Shown in pieces: positions 54,562 to 59,345 of a stretch of 64,000 nucleotides of DNA (its first letter is position 1; each line of letters starts with the position of its first letter). Made by a program: the position numbers and the translations under genes. The notes below the pieces were generated by a model. The model searched no databases, was not told where the DNA came from, and worked only from the letters and a program-made list of their open reading frames with translations. Source of the stretch: Candidatus Kapaibacterium sp. Its GTDB lineage: Bacteria; Bacteroidota; Ignavibacteria; Kapaibacteriales; UBA2268. The DNA lies in NCBI GenBank assembly GCA_937927515.1, contig CALBDO010000012.1, forward strand, positions 1 through 64,000, read 5' to 3'.

Positions 54562-56355
54562 ATGGAAAAACATAAGCTTAAAAGCGGACTTTTCGTATTT
54601 ATTGTTTCTCTATTTTCCTTAGTATTTGTTCTAAGGCTTGCGTATTTACAAATTTTAAAGGGAAGTGTTTACAAAATCAAATCGGAGACCCAGGCGATAA
54701 AAGCTCAAATAGTTTATCCATTTCGCGGTAATATATATGATAGGGATGACAATCTATTAGTTTATAATGTTCCTTCTTATTCATTACAAGTATCCTTCGA
54801 AAATTTCCGAATGGATAGAGCTTGGTTGTTAGGTAAAATTTTGAATACTGATAGCCTTGGTGTTTACAATTTAATCCTCCAAAACATTTTAAATTATCAT
54901 TATGGAGAAGTCAAAATTCTAAGGGATTTGGATATTGAAACAGTCCAGAAGATTTATGAGCATTCCCATTTACTACCGGGGGTCGATGTAGTGGTTGAGT
55001 CTAAAAGGATGTATAACTTGGACTCGAAAATGTCGCATATAATTGGATATATTCAAGAAATCTCCCCCGAAGAAATTAAAAGCGAATCCTATTACAATCT
55101 TGGAGATTATATTGGTAAATCAGGAGTGGAAAAGTATTATGAGATGGAGCTTCGCGGTCAGAAGGGTAAAAGATTTGTGGGAATTTTTGGTAGCGGTGAC
55201 AAAACGGAGAAGTTCAACGAAGGTCGGTCGGATGTCCCAGTAAAGAACGGAGACGACCTAATTCTTTCCATCGACTTGAAACTTCAATCAAAAGCTGAAA
55301 AACTGCTCGAAGGTAAGCGCGGTGCCATTGTTGCAATCGACCCGAACAATGGTGAAGTGCTTGCATTGGTTAGCAAACCCGATTACGACATATCAACTTT
55401 GAGTGGAAAAAATTTTTCGAAAAACTATACTTTGTTGTTGATGGACAAAGACAAACCACTTTTGAATAGAGCTATCCAGTCGCGTTATCCACCTGGTTCC
55501 ACTTGGAAGCCACTTATGGCAATAGCTGGGTTGGAAGAAGGAATTATCAATGAAAACACAACTTTTTTCTGTGGTGGTCAACTTATTTTTGGCGATAGAC
55601 CTTTTGGGTGTCACGGTGCTCACGGAAACGTAAATGTAACAAAGGCTATACAAGCATCTTGCAATGTCTTTTTCTATCATCTTGCTTTAAAGCTGAATTT
55701 AGAGCGATTATCTAAATGGGGATTGGATTTTGGTTTTGGTCAAAAAACCGGCATTGATTTGCCTTTTGAAAATGCTGGTGTATTTCCAACTTTAACCTAT
55801 TTGAAAAAGAAATTTGGTACCTTGGATAAAGCTCCAAAAGGTTTGTTGCTTAATTATGGTATTGGTCAAGGGGAAATAGCTGTTACTCCCATACAAATGG
55901 CCGTGTATGTTGCAACGATTGCAAATGGTGGCACAATTTACACCCCGCATGTTGTAAAAGCGATTAAAAATAGCCTACTAAATCAAACAACACTACTTAA
56001 AGTTGAAAAAAGGAAGTTGGGTTTAAATCCAAAAACCATTGAAATATTGAAAAAATCGATGTTTGATGTTGTTAATACTCCTGGTGGTACAGCTTATGGC
56101 ATAAAAATACCAAATCTCGACGTTTGTGGCAAAACTGGCACTGCTCAGGCGTCTCAACCTGGACAAAGAGACCATTCGTGGTTTATTTGTTTTGCTCCAA
56201 AAGATAATCCAAAAATTGCTATTTCAGTGATTGTTGAAAATGCTGGTTTTGGTGCAGCCGTTGCAGCTCCTATTGCCAGGGAGTTACTCCTTGAGTTCTT
56301 TAATATAAAGGAACAAATAACAAGAGTTGATACTTTAAAAGTATTGCCCGACTAA
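54562..56355 (+). CDS. mrdA: Penicillin-binding protein 2 (peptidoglycan transpeptidase)
   Basis: The 597-residue class B PBP crosslinks peptidoglycan during cell elongation. An N-terminal transmembrane helix (about 9-29) is followed by the dimerisation domain (FRGNIYDRDDNLLVYNVPSY) and the transpeptidase: STWK at 313-316, SCN at 366-368, and KTG at 524-526. Phrases such as IGKSGVEKYYEMELRG and GEIAVTPIQMAVYVATIANG are typical of the PBP2 branch. The mreC, mreD and rodA genes often found beside it are not adjacent. A TATTTTTG box lies at 54533-54540, without a good -33 element. Confidence 0.95.
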   Translation: MEKHKLKSGLFVFIVSLFSLVFVLRLAYLQILKGSVYKIKSETQAIKAQIVYPFRGNIYDRDDNLLVYNVPSYSLQVSFENFRMDRAWLLGKILNTDSLGVYNLILQNILNYHYGEVKILRDLDIETVQKIYEHSHLLPGVDVVVESKRMYNLDSKMSHIIGYIQEISPEEIKSESYYNLGDYIGKSGVEKYYEMELRGQKGKRFVGIFGSGDKTEKFNEGRSDVPVKNGDDLILSIDLKLQSKAEKLLEGKRGAIVAIDPNNGEVLALVSKPDYDISTLSGKNFSKNYTLLLMDKDKPLLNRAIQSRYPPGSTWKPLMAIAGLEEGIINENTTFFCGGQLIFGDRPFGCHGAHGNVNVTKAIQASCNVFFYHLALKLNLERLSKWGLDFGFGQKTGIDLPFENAGVFPTLTYLKKKFGTLDKAPKGLLLNYGIGQGEIAVTPIQMAVYVATIANGGTIYTPHVVKAIKNSLLNQTTLLKVEKRKLGLNPKTIEILKKSMFDVVNTPGGTAYGIKIPNLDVCGKTGTAQASQPGQRDHSWFICFAPKDNPKIAISVIVENAGFGAAVAAPIARELLLEFFNIKEQITRVDTLKVLPD

Positions 56356-56435: not shown

Positions 56436-58700
56436 ATGAAAAAATTTTACATAATCTTAGTGGTTCTTTCTGTTATTGGTTTGCTTTTTTCTTGTGTTGA
56501 ACCAACTAAACAAACCATTACCGAGGAGAATAGCCTAGTTGGAACTTTAGTTGATGAACAAGACATTCCCATCCCTAATGCAGAAGTTTACATCGTTCAA
56601 ACAAATCTAGGGAAAACCAGTGTTCTGCTATCCGAACGGATAATAGCTATCGATACCACAGATGAAGACGGAAAATTTGAGTTTAAAAACATATCTGTTC
56701 CTTTTAATTCATTGAAGCTGAGAGTAATTCATCAAGACTTCGAGTTGTTTGAAAACAATTTGCCCACAATTCTCGAGTCGCAAATTTATCAAAGTAAAGT
56801 TCGCATACGTTTGAAACATAATGATGACTGCTGTGGAAGAATTATTATACACACTTTAAGTTCGGATTCGATTGCTTTAAGTGGTGTAGAAGTTAAACTA
56901 AATAGAGGCAAAGAATGCGTAAGGAAAACAAAATCCGGAGATGCTGGTACTGTTGTTTTTGAAAATGTTTGTTCTGGATACTATTGGCTTAGGATAGCTA
57001 AAGAAGGATATAAGGTTATAGAAAAGGAATTTTCGATTCAAAAATGTGACACCCTCGAATTTCATTTCGTTCTAAATAATAAAGAGCAAGATACTTGTTG
57101 CAATGGTATATTGGGTGTAGAGGTAGTCAATGGGAACAATGAAAAACTTAATGGAGCGATTGTGAAATTGCGTAAAAACGGTTCATTGTTGACAACATTA
57201 ACTACTAAAGATAATCAGCCTGTTTATTTCCGTGAGCTCTGCCCCGGGACATATAGTGTATTGATTATAAAAGAAGGATTTAAAGCTGTCGAGCGTAGCG
57301 TTACACTGGAATGCAAAGACTCCATATGCCTATCGGTCCAAATGGAGGAAGACACATGTTGCAACAGCGTTTTACGAGTTTATGTAAAGAATACAGAAGG
57401 AAGTCCATTGCAAAACGCGAGAATAATTATTTGGAAGCAAGGTACGAAGTTGGGTTATTTATCGACAAATGATAGTGGCTTTGTTGTGTTTCGTAATCTA
57501 TGCAAGGGTGTTTATGCATTCGATATTCAAAAGGATGGATACAAATCCATAGAGTTTACAATTGAAATAGGTTGTAACGAGGAAAAGGAAATTGCAAAAG
57601 TTCTTCAATTGGCTAAGCCGGATAGCTGTTGCAATGGCTCAATCAAAATCATTGCTAAAAATAGTGAAGAACAACCTTTAGTTCAGGCAAATGTGAGCAT
57701 TTTAAAAGATGGGAAGAAGCTTGGGAATTATTTAACTAATAATGATGGATTCGTTGTTTTTCAAAAGCTGTGCCAAGGAAAGTATGTTTTCGTTATTAGT
57801 AAAGAAGGCTACAAGACCATAGAATTCTATGTTGAACTAGGTTGTGATGAAGAAAAGGTAGTAACTAAGTTTTTGAACAGAGATAAGAACGATACTTGTT
57901 GCAATGGTGTTGCAATCATACGCGTTAAAAACCATTCAGACAGTTCTGTTATAAATGGTGCAACCGTAAAAATGTGGAAGAATGGACAAATTATAAACAA
58001 AGCCACAACCTCCAACGGATTTGTCATTTTCAAAAACATCTGTCCTGGAGAATATTGCTTCTCGATTGATAAAGACGCTTTCCGTGTCACCGAGTTTACG
58101 CTTACATTTGAATGCAATGATACAATTGATATTACTAAATTTCTTCAATCTGAATTGAAAGATACCTGCTGTAAAGGTAAGATAATATTGTACATTAAAG
58201 ACTCGACCAATAATGAGCCAATTAGAACTGCGGAAGTTAAACTTTGGAAAGGCAATCAAAAGGTTGCTTCTCAGACCACAAATGAAAATGGTAGAGTAGT
58301 TTTTGAAAATTTATGTGAAGGTGAATATCAAGTTTCTGTCTTCAAAACTAACTATCGTGGCTTTGAATTTAATTTCAACTTAGGATGCAACGAAACAAAA
58401 GAAATTGTGAAATATTTAATTGCAAAAAATGATACTTGTTGCTCTGCCAGATTGAAGTTGCGCATTTTGGATGCATCATCTAATTCGCCTCTATCTGGTG
58501 CTAGAGTTCAAATTAGAAATAACGGAGAAACCCTTGCCGATAAATACTCTAATTCAGAGGGTTGGGCCGTTTTCGAAAACCTATGTGCACCAAAGACTTA
58601 TTCACTAAGAATATCCGCAGATGGTTATCAGGTTCGCGAATTTACGATTACTTTTCAAGAGTGCAATACGGTTCAAGAAACTGTTCGACTCGAGAAATAA
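56436..58700 (+). CDS. Lipoprotein with seven tandem cysteine-rich beta-sandwich repeats
   Basis: The 754-residue protein has a lipoprotein signal with lipobox LLFSC (Cys20). Residues about 32-128 form a carboxypeptidase-regulatory-like beta sandwich (LVGTLVDEQDIPIPNAEVYI, then DTTDEDGKFEFKNI). From residue 130 to the end there are seven tandem repeats of about 85-90 residues, each a CnaB-like beta domain. Every repeat begins D-x-C-C (mostly DTCCNG), has a third Cys before a Gly or Lys loop (LCPGTYSV, ICPGEYCF, LCEGEYQV, VCSGYYWL) and a fourth Cys near the end (ECKDS, GCNEE, GCDEE, ECND, QKCD). This gives a constant four-cysteine pattern, probably two disulfides per domain in the periplasm or outside. 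No sorting tail is present, so lipid is the only visible anchor. It could be a long stalk or an adhesin-like rod; no homologue is recognised. A thioredoxin-fold lipoprotein gene follows at 58827. Confidence 0.88.
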   Translation: MKKFYIILVVLSVIGLLFSCVEPTKQTITEENSLVGTLVDEQDIPIPNAEVYIVQTNLGKTSVLLSERIIAIDTTDEDGKFEFKNISVPFNSLKLRVIHQDFELFENNLPTILESQIYQSKVRIRLKHNDDCCGRIIIHTLSSDSIALSGVEVKLNRGKECVRKTKSGDAGTVVFENVCSGYYWLRIAKEGYKVIEKEFSIQKCDTLEFHFVLNNKEQDTCCNGILGVEVVNGNNEKLNGAIVKLRKNGSLLTTLTTKDNQPVYFRELCPGTYSVLIIKEGFKAVERSVTLECKDSICLSVQMEEDTCCNSVLRVYVKNTEGSPLQNARIIIWKQGTKLGYLSTNDSGFVVFRNLCKGVYAFDIQKDGYKSIEFTIEIGCNEEKEIAKVLQLAKPDSCCNGSIKIIAKNSEEQPLVQANVSILKDGKKLGNYLTNNDGFVVFQKLCQGKYVFVISKEGYKTIEFYVELGCDEEKVVTKFLNRDKNDTCCNGVAIIRVKNHSDSSVINGATVKMWKNGQIINKATTSNGFVIFKNICPGEYCFSIDKDAFRVTEFTLTFECNDTIDITKFLQSELKDTCCKGKIILYIKDSTNNEPIRTAEVKLWKGNQKVASQTTNENGRVVFENLCEGEYQVSVFKTNYRGFEFNFNLGCNETKEIVKYLIAKNDTCCSARLKLRILDASSNSPLSGARVQIRNNGETLADKYSNSEGWAVFENLCAPKTYSLRISADGYQVREFTITFQECNTVQETVRLEK

Positions 58701-58761
58701 TATTGGTCTGTCTGTGTTTGTGTGGTTGCTTTCGAGTGTTTTCCGTTGTCATAAAATTATT

Positions 58762-58793
58762 TTGTTCTTTATTTCTCCTTTTGCTTAATTTTG
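58762..58793 (+). promoter_or_regulatory. Probable Bacteroidota-type promoter of the thioredoxin-like lipoprotein gene
   Basis: TTG at 58762-58764 and TAATTTTG at 58786-58793 are separated by 21 bases, at the upper end of the usual spacing. The start would be near 58800, about 25 bases before the ATG at 58827. Confidence 0.4.
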
Positions 58794-58826
58794 AGTTTAA
58801 TTTTTTTTGAACATCATTAAAGACAA

Positions 58827-59345
58827 ATGAAAAGTCTATTTAGCAAGGTCTTTCTGGTTGCCTTAGTGATTACTTGCTGCCAAGTCAATGATGTTGACAA
58901 CACCGCAAAGTTAATCACTTTACAAGAACTTTTGAACTTGTTGCCTGGTTATGAATGGTTTTCATATGAATATTACAAATATCAGCCAGATGAAGCTGCT
59001 CTTCGTGCTATAGACTCATTATGGAATCTCAAGAGATATAGGTTTTTAGTGTTCTCAAACCCGAGTTGTAATTGTGAGGGTACGCAGGCAATTTTTCCTA
59101 TAGTCCTCAAATGTCTTAAATCTGGCAATATTCCCGACGGTTCAATAATTATTTATTCGATGCTAAATGAAACATATCAACATCCATTTATGAAAAAGTT
59201 TAAAATCAAAAAGCTTCCAGCTTGTTTTATAGAAATTGATACAATCCAGTACTACTCTGTTGTAGATACTTTTGAACTTTATCGTTATAAGTTTCCTGGT
59301 AAATATAAAATAGAACATATTATATCGCTTGGTCTGACAAGATAG
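58827..59345 (+). CDS. Thioredoxin-fold lipoprotein
   Basis: The 172-residue protein starts with a lipoprotein-like signal (MKSLFSKVFLVALVITCCQV, the lipidated Cys probably residue 17 or 18). Residues about 70-172 fit a thioredoxin fold: a strand RFLVFSNPSCNCEGTQAIFP, with a CxC motif (SCNCE) where thioredoxins have CxxC, then IIIYSMLNETYQ and a KKLPACF loop with the cis-proline followed by Ala-Cys. The CxC pair suggests thiol transfer or disulfide handling rather than classical thioredoxin reduction; an antioxidant or metal-chaperone role cannot be excluded. It follows the cysteine-repeat lipoprotein by 126 bases and probably has its own promoter. The gene converges with the GT9 gene 12 bases downstream. 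Confidence 0.7.
   Translation: MKSLFSKVFLVALVITCCQVNDVDNTAKLITLQELLNLLPGYEWFSYEYYKYQPDEAALRAIDSLWNLKRYRFLVFSNPSCNCEGTQAIFPIVLKCLKSGNIPDGSIIIYSMLNETYQHPFMKKFKIKKLPACFIEIDTIQYYSVVDTFELYRYKFPGKYKIEHIISLGLTR

Follow-up and report, generated by a model that had tools for sequence, protein, structure and literature searches.

The locus considered here lies in a window of 64,000 nucleotides (by window we mean the whole stretch of DNA that was analysed), where a gene for a lipoprotein with many regularly spaced cysteines is followed by a gene for a second lipoprotein with a thioredoxin-like fold. The question that it raises is how the cysteines of the first protein are bonded, and whether the second protein is dedicated to them. 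The original prediction had envisaged vicinal disulfides or metal clusters in a repeat rod, maintained by a dedicated oxidoreductase. The features of the first gene, which we call the rod gene, are as follows.

56436–58700, + strand: putative rod lipoprotein of 754 aa (1 Cys-free and 7 four-Cys transthyretin-like/CarboxypepD_reg domains)
56532–56816, + strand: N-terminal Cys-free CarboxypepD_reg domain, after the lipobox (about aa 33–127)
56820–57086, + strand: four-Cys repeat 1 (C132, C133, C179, C204)
57087–57347, + strand: four-Cys repeat 2 (C221, C222, C269, C293)
57348–57617, + strand: four-Cys repeat 3 (C308, C309, C356, C380), in the structure model
57618–57887, + strand: four-Cys repeat 4 (C398, C399, C446, C470), in the structure model
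57888–58157, + strand: four-Cys repeat 5 (C488, C489, C536, C560)
58158–58427, + strand: four-Cys repeat 6 (C578, C579, C627, C651)
58428–58697, + strand: four-Cys repeat 7 (C668, C669, C717, C743)

The open reading frame, the cysteine spacing and the lipobox (...LLFSC20) agree with the earlier description of a lipid-anchored protein of seven tandem four-Cys repeats with 28 conserved cysteines. The repeats are 87–90 aa long (n = 7), with cysteines at relative positions 0, 1, 47–49 and 72–75, referred to below as C1 through C4, and the total of 32 cysteines is made up of these 28 patterned residues, the lipobox cysteine and 3 strays. The strays (C161, C298 and C541) are off-pattern, and orthologues from the same genus (L061–L063) have fewer cysteines overall: 29, 29 and 30, respectively. 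The count of seven four-Cys copies stood, but the first reading had overlooked an eighth domain, which is N-terminal, belongs to the same PF13620 family and contains no cysteine. PF13620 matched the protein in 8 stretches at E 2e-61, with 204.8 bits against a Pfam cut-off of 32.3 bits. The original prediction had also proposed comparison of copy number, and we observed that the number of domains does differ between rod homologues.

To examine the fold we used a model of two repeats built from 14 aligned rows; a three-repeat alignment was out of register and was set aside. The two-repeat model had a pLDDT of 93.7 and a pTM of 0.51, at which the angle between the domains is unreliable, and each domain was predicted to form a transthyretin-like beta-sandwich of seven strands. 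Its best structural matches were transthyretin-like and CnaB-like domains, the first being the transthyretin-like domain of human carboxypeptidase D (5aq0; Z 13.0, rmsd 1.3 Å over 79 residues). In the numbering of this model, C4 and C5 lie immediately ahead of strand A (7–14), C52 lies in the turn between the fourth and fifth strands (45–51 and 54–61), and C76 lies between the sixth and seventh (68–74 and 79–85); by strand order, all four cysteines of a domain would be at one pole of the sandwich. The strand-E column of the repeats, which may be the equivalent of the catalytic Glu position of CnaB domains with their Lys-Asn isopeptide, is mostly Ile, Val or Leu.

Evidence on cysteine pairing came from 269 full-length domains in 43 homologous proteins. 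All four cysteines were present in 245 of these domains, far above chance, so that the expected conservation among homologues was borne out; the profile that found the domains had been trained on repeats picked for the CC pair, a selection that affects the vicinal pair and not C3 or C4. Not every exception is a separate event of loss, and a Fisher test on them has descriptive value only. A single vicinal cysteine was accompanied by C3, with C4 lost, in 12 domains, and by C4, with C3 lost, in 6. Three other domains had one cysteine at the vicinal position and another in the upstream linker, and no C4; one kept CC and had lost C4 while possessing an extra cysteine; and 2 were Cys-free. In none of the 269 domains were both distant cysteines retained beside a single vicinal cysteine. 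Every domain with a single vicinal cysteine thus lacks exactly one of C3 and C4, which places the two vicinal cysteines in different disulfides. From this pattern in the sequences, each vicinal cysteine appears to be bonded to a different distant cysteine, and in the canonical register the pairs would be C2–C3 and C1–C4. A homologue from outside the order illustrates the former pair: repeat 3 of L186, DTCTNG...LTPG...SC, has lost C2 and C3 jointly. Variants of the first repeat, whose register is one residue off, do not decide between C1 and C2 as the partner of a given distant cysteine; a Cys-masked profile, intended as an independent check of register, was too noisy owing to indels of one residue next to CC and the F–G turn.

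The same losses bear on two other arrangements. Four near-invariant cysteines placed, by strand order, at one domain pole might be expected of a site for zinc or an iron-sulfur cluster, or of a redox switch in which CC forms a vicinal disulfide. Yet the losses consist of one vicinal and one distant cysteine, CC is never lost with C3 and C4 kept, nor C3 and C4 with CC kept, and two-Cys domains persist within four-Cys rods (domain 5 of L066, L067 and L076), which makes such a site or switch very improbable; the vicinal disulfides or metal clusters originally suggested are not supported. Bonds between neighbouring domains, from C4 to C1 of the next, might be favored by the short distance in sequence from C4 to the following CC (~15–18 residues), but three observations speak against them: domain 5 of L066, L067 and L076 lacks C1 and C4 between two four-Cys domains, first domains without C4 precede complete domains, and last domains retain C1 and C4 with no successor. 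Interdomain bonding also seems to us very improbable. The vicinal disulfide, the metal site and the interdomain bond were each rejected on the paired-loss pattern, and we retain two disulfides within each domain as the preferred reading.

The region downstream of the rod gene contains the following features.

58762–58793, + strand: Bacteroidota-type promoter match TTG-N21-TAATTTTG (TAnnTTTG), ahead of the thioredoxin-fold gene; a consensus match only
58827–59345, + strand: thioredoxin-fold lipoprotein of 172 aa with a CxC motif, order-wide and apparently not a dedicated partner
59067–59075, + strand: CNC (CxC) motif, C81 and C83
59214–59219, + strand: Leu130-Pro131 of a cis-Pro-type loop; P131 is invariant in alignments A2, A3 and A5

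The lipobox, the motifs and the model agree in describing the second protein as a lipoprotein with a thioredoxin-like fold, a CxC motif and a cis-Pro loop, just as first proposed. It has a lipobox cysteine, C81-x-C83 and LP131-A-C133, and in comparison with 20 relatives the invariant positions include the lipobox cysteine C18, C83 and P131, while C81 is almost invariant. The model (pLDDT 88.8) is thioredoxin-like, with PA1234 (1z6n) as its nearest structure at Z 9.4. Searches with this protein reached no Pfam or NCBIfam family, and against PDB sequences neither it nor its profile found more than weak thioredoxin matches. Its named relatives picked up in the genome scan come from MAGs assigned to Candidatus Kapaibacterium or Ignavibacteria; a few carry no finer label than Bacteroidota or Bacteroidetes. 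One member of the family (L116:6383–6913) has CGPC, and may help to place the family within the thioredoxins.

The two genes are separated by 126 bp. The suggestion that the second has its own promoter was borne out in part: there is one match to the Bacteroidota-type consensus, which occurs in the window at 0.16 per kb, but no sigma-70 promoter above chance in the intergenic gap. In four relatives (L061–L064), terminator-like hairpins of -17.4 to -21.7 kcal/mol lie between the rod and CxC genes, and 3 of the 4 run into a clear T stretch; no hairpin of that kind is present in the gap of the window itself.

Gene neighborhoods were compared at 35 rod loci from the family. At 5 of these, all in the genus of the window (the window and L061–L064), the rod gene has the CxC gene next to it in the same orientation. 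The commonest neighbor of the rod gene is the following, which adjoins it in ten loci from four genera; other neighbors vary.

54562–56355, + strand: penicillin-binding protein 2 (mrdA)

A full-length DsbD gene immediately precedes the rod gene, and is co-oriented with it, in one further genus (L080:5351–7291 and L089:4332–6251). In genus g27 (L066, L067 and L076) the rod gene lies beside an operon for an ABC ATPase, an ABC-2 permease, a Thioredoxin_7 protein and a Rce1-like CAAX-type protease. An EVE-domain gene is immediately adjacent to the gene for the CxC lipoprotein at 15 of 31 family loci (L063, L095, L096, L098, L099 and others), and also in L175 and L183 outside the family; it is the usual neighbor of the CxC gene outside the genus of the window.

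The distribution of the two genes was examined in 123 genomes of the order, of which 111 have the CxC family and 51 the rod. The CxC gene is present in 49 of the 51 rod-positive and 62 of the 72 rod-negative genomes (Fisher p 0.12), and in 13 genomes of the family the CxC gene is present but no rod gene was detected. A sample of 395 genomes from the phylum, in which up to 13 candidates per genome were scored, contained a single genome outside the order with a rod match at 1e-12. Thioredoxin-fold genes within 3 genes of the rod gave 14 matches with seeds that came partly from the same loci, and an unbiased test for WCxxC found no excess outside the genus of the window; we claim no enrichment of such genes near the rod.

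These observations bear on the proposal that the rod and the CxC lipoprotein work as a pair, with the latter as an oxidoreductase or isomerase dedicated to the former. The genes are adjacent and co-oriented in 5 of 5 genomes of the genus, the genus is without DsbA, DsbB and VKOR, and L080 and L089, of another genus, have the rod gene immediately after a DsbD gene. Against this, the thioredoxin-like gene does not travel with the repeat gene, the pairing having been seen in no other genus examined; relatives have terminator-like hairpins between the two genes; presence of one gene is not associated with presence of the other across the 123 genomes; some genomes of the family have the CxC gene and no detected rod gene; and outside the genus the CxC gene usually sits beside the EVE-domain gene. 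We consider a dedicated pair quite improbable, and a two-gene system is not supported. The CxC lipoprotein may nonetheless act on the rod among other clients.

The source of oxidizing equivalents for the rod is a separate matter. The window's genome (2.39 Mb, 41 contigs) and the other genomes of the order yielded neither DsbB nor VKOR (0 of 123 for each, with positive controls matched), and DsbA was found in none of the 5 genomes of the genus; a DsbD_TM protein is present in 117 of 123, including that of the window. DsbA, DsbB and VKOR were likewise unmatched in a control genome, Bacteroides ihuae, and the lack may therefore extend beyond the order. Searches of the order turned up no known disulfide oxidase. 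Oxidation of the rod cysteines is accordingly only putative, and the disulfides would need another route or uncatalyzed oxidation. The order-wide CxC lipoprotein is one candidate oxidant. That the order forms two disulfides per repeat without DsbB or VKOR, by an unrecognized route in which this lipoprotein serves as envelope oxidase or isomerase with recycling by DsbD, is a speculation that we think rather unlikely. In an order with no detected DsbB or VKOR, the rod may serve as a natural multi-copy reporter for disulfides, which would turn their formation in the envelope into a testable question, and the route of oxidation is the part of the finding worth following.

In the aggregate, we think it probable that the first gene encodes a lipid-anchored rigid rod in which two intradomain disulfides staple one pole of each of the seven four-Cys domains, and that the CxC lipoprotein is an order-wide protein that happens to adjoin it in one genus. 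Tandem transthyretin/CnaB-like beta-sandwich domains would form the rod. In each domain one of the vicinal cysteines at the start of strand A would join the cysteine of the D–E turn (LCxG) and the other that of the F–G turn, and the two staples would stiffen the base of the domain beside the interdomain linker. If these bonds form in vivo, they may protect an exported stalk or spacer, the length of which would shift through gain or loss of entire domains. The downstream protein, probably transcribed separately, would be an envelope thiol-redox protein, possibly a client of DsbD or an isomerase.

A literature search found no published account of the rod protein, which appears, on sequence evidence, to be an unusual tandem version of a known domain family, doubly stapled by disulfides and almost wholly confined to one order in the genomes searched. 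With the thioredoxin superfamily (PA1234, protein disulfide oxidoreductases and thioredoxins), the CxC protein shares the fold, the cis-Pro loop and the redox cysteines at a helix start, but CxC replaces the CxxC of thioredoxins in all aligned relatives except one. Bacilliredoxins (BrxA/YphP, PF06491) are thioredoxin-fold proteins with a short CxC motif; the protein described here differs from them in its lipid anchor, and had no match to PF06491 at E up to 10, with 1 of 20 relatives matching weakly (0.0031). The rod repeats share their family, by profile, and their fold with the carboxypeptidase D transthyretin-like domain (PF13620), yet the rod is a lipoprotein with a tandem array of seven such domains, four near-invariant cysteines in each, and no peptidase. 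The B-type domains of CnaB, SpaA and SdrD in Gram-positive pilins and adhesins (5f44, 3kpt, 10ps) likewise form tandem rods of prealbumin-like beta-sandwiches, and CnaB pilin rods are stiffened by an internal isopeptide bond (PMC3132780). In the rod described here the staple is apparently two disulfides, the anchor is a lipid, the lineage is Gram-negative and no sortase context was seen, which suggests a disulfide counterpart of the isopeptide-stapled pilus rods of Gram-positive bacteria.
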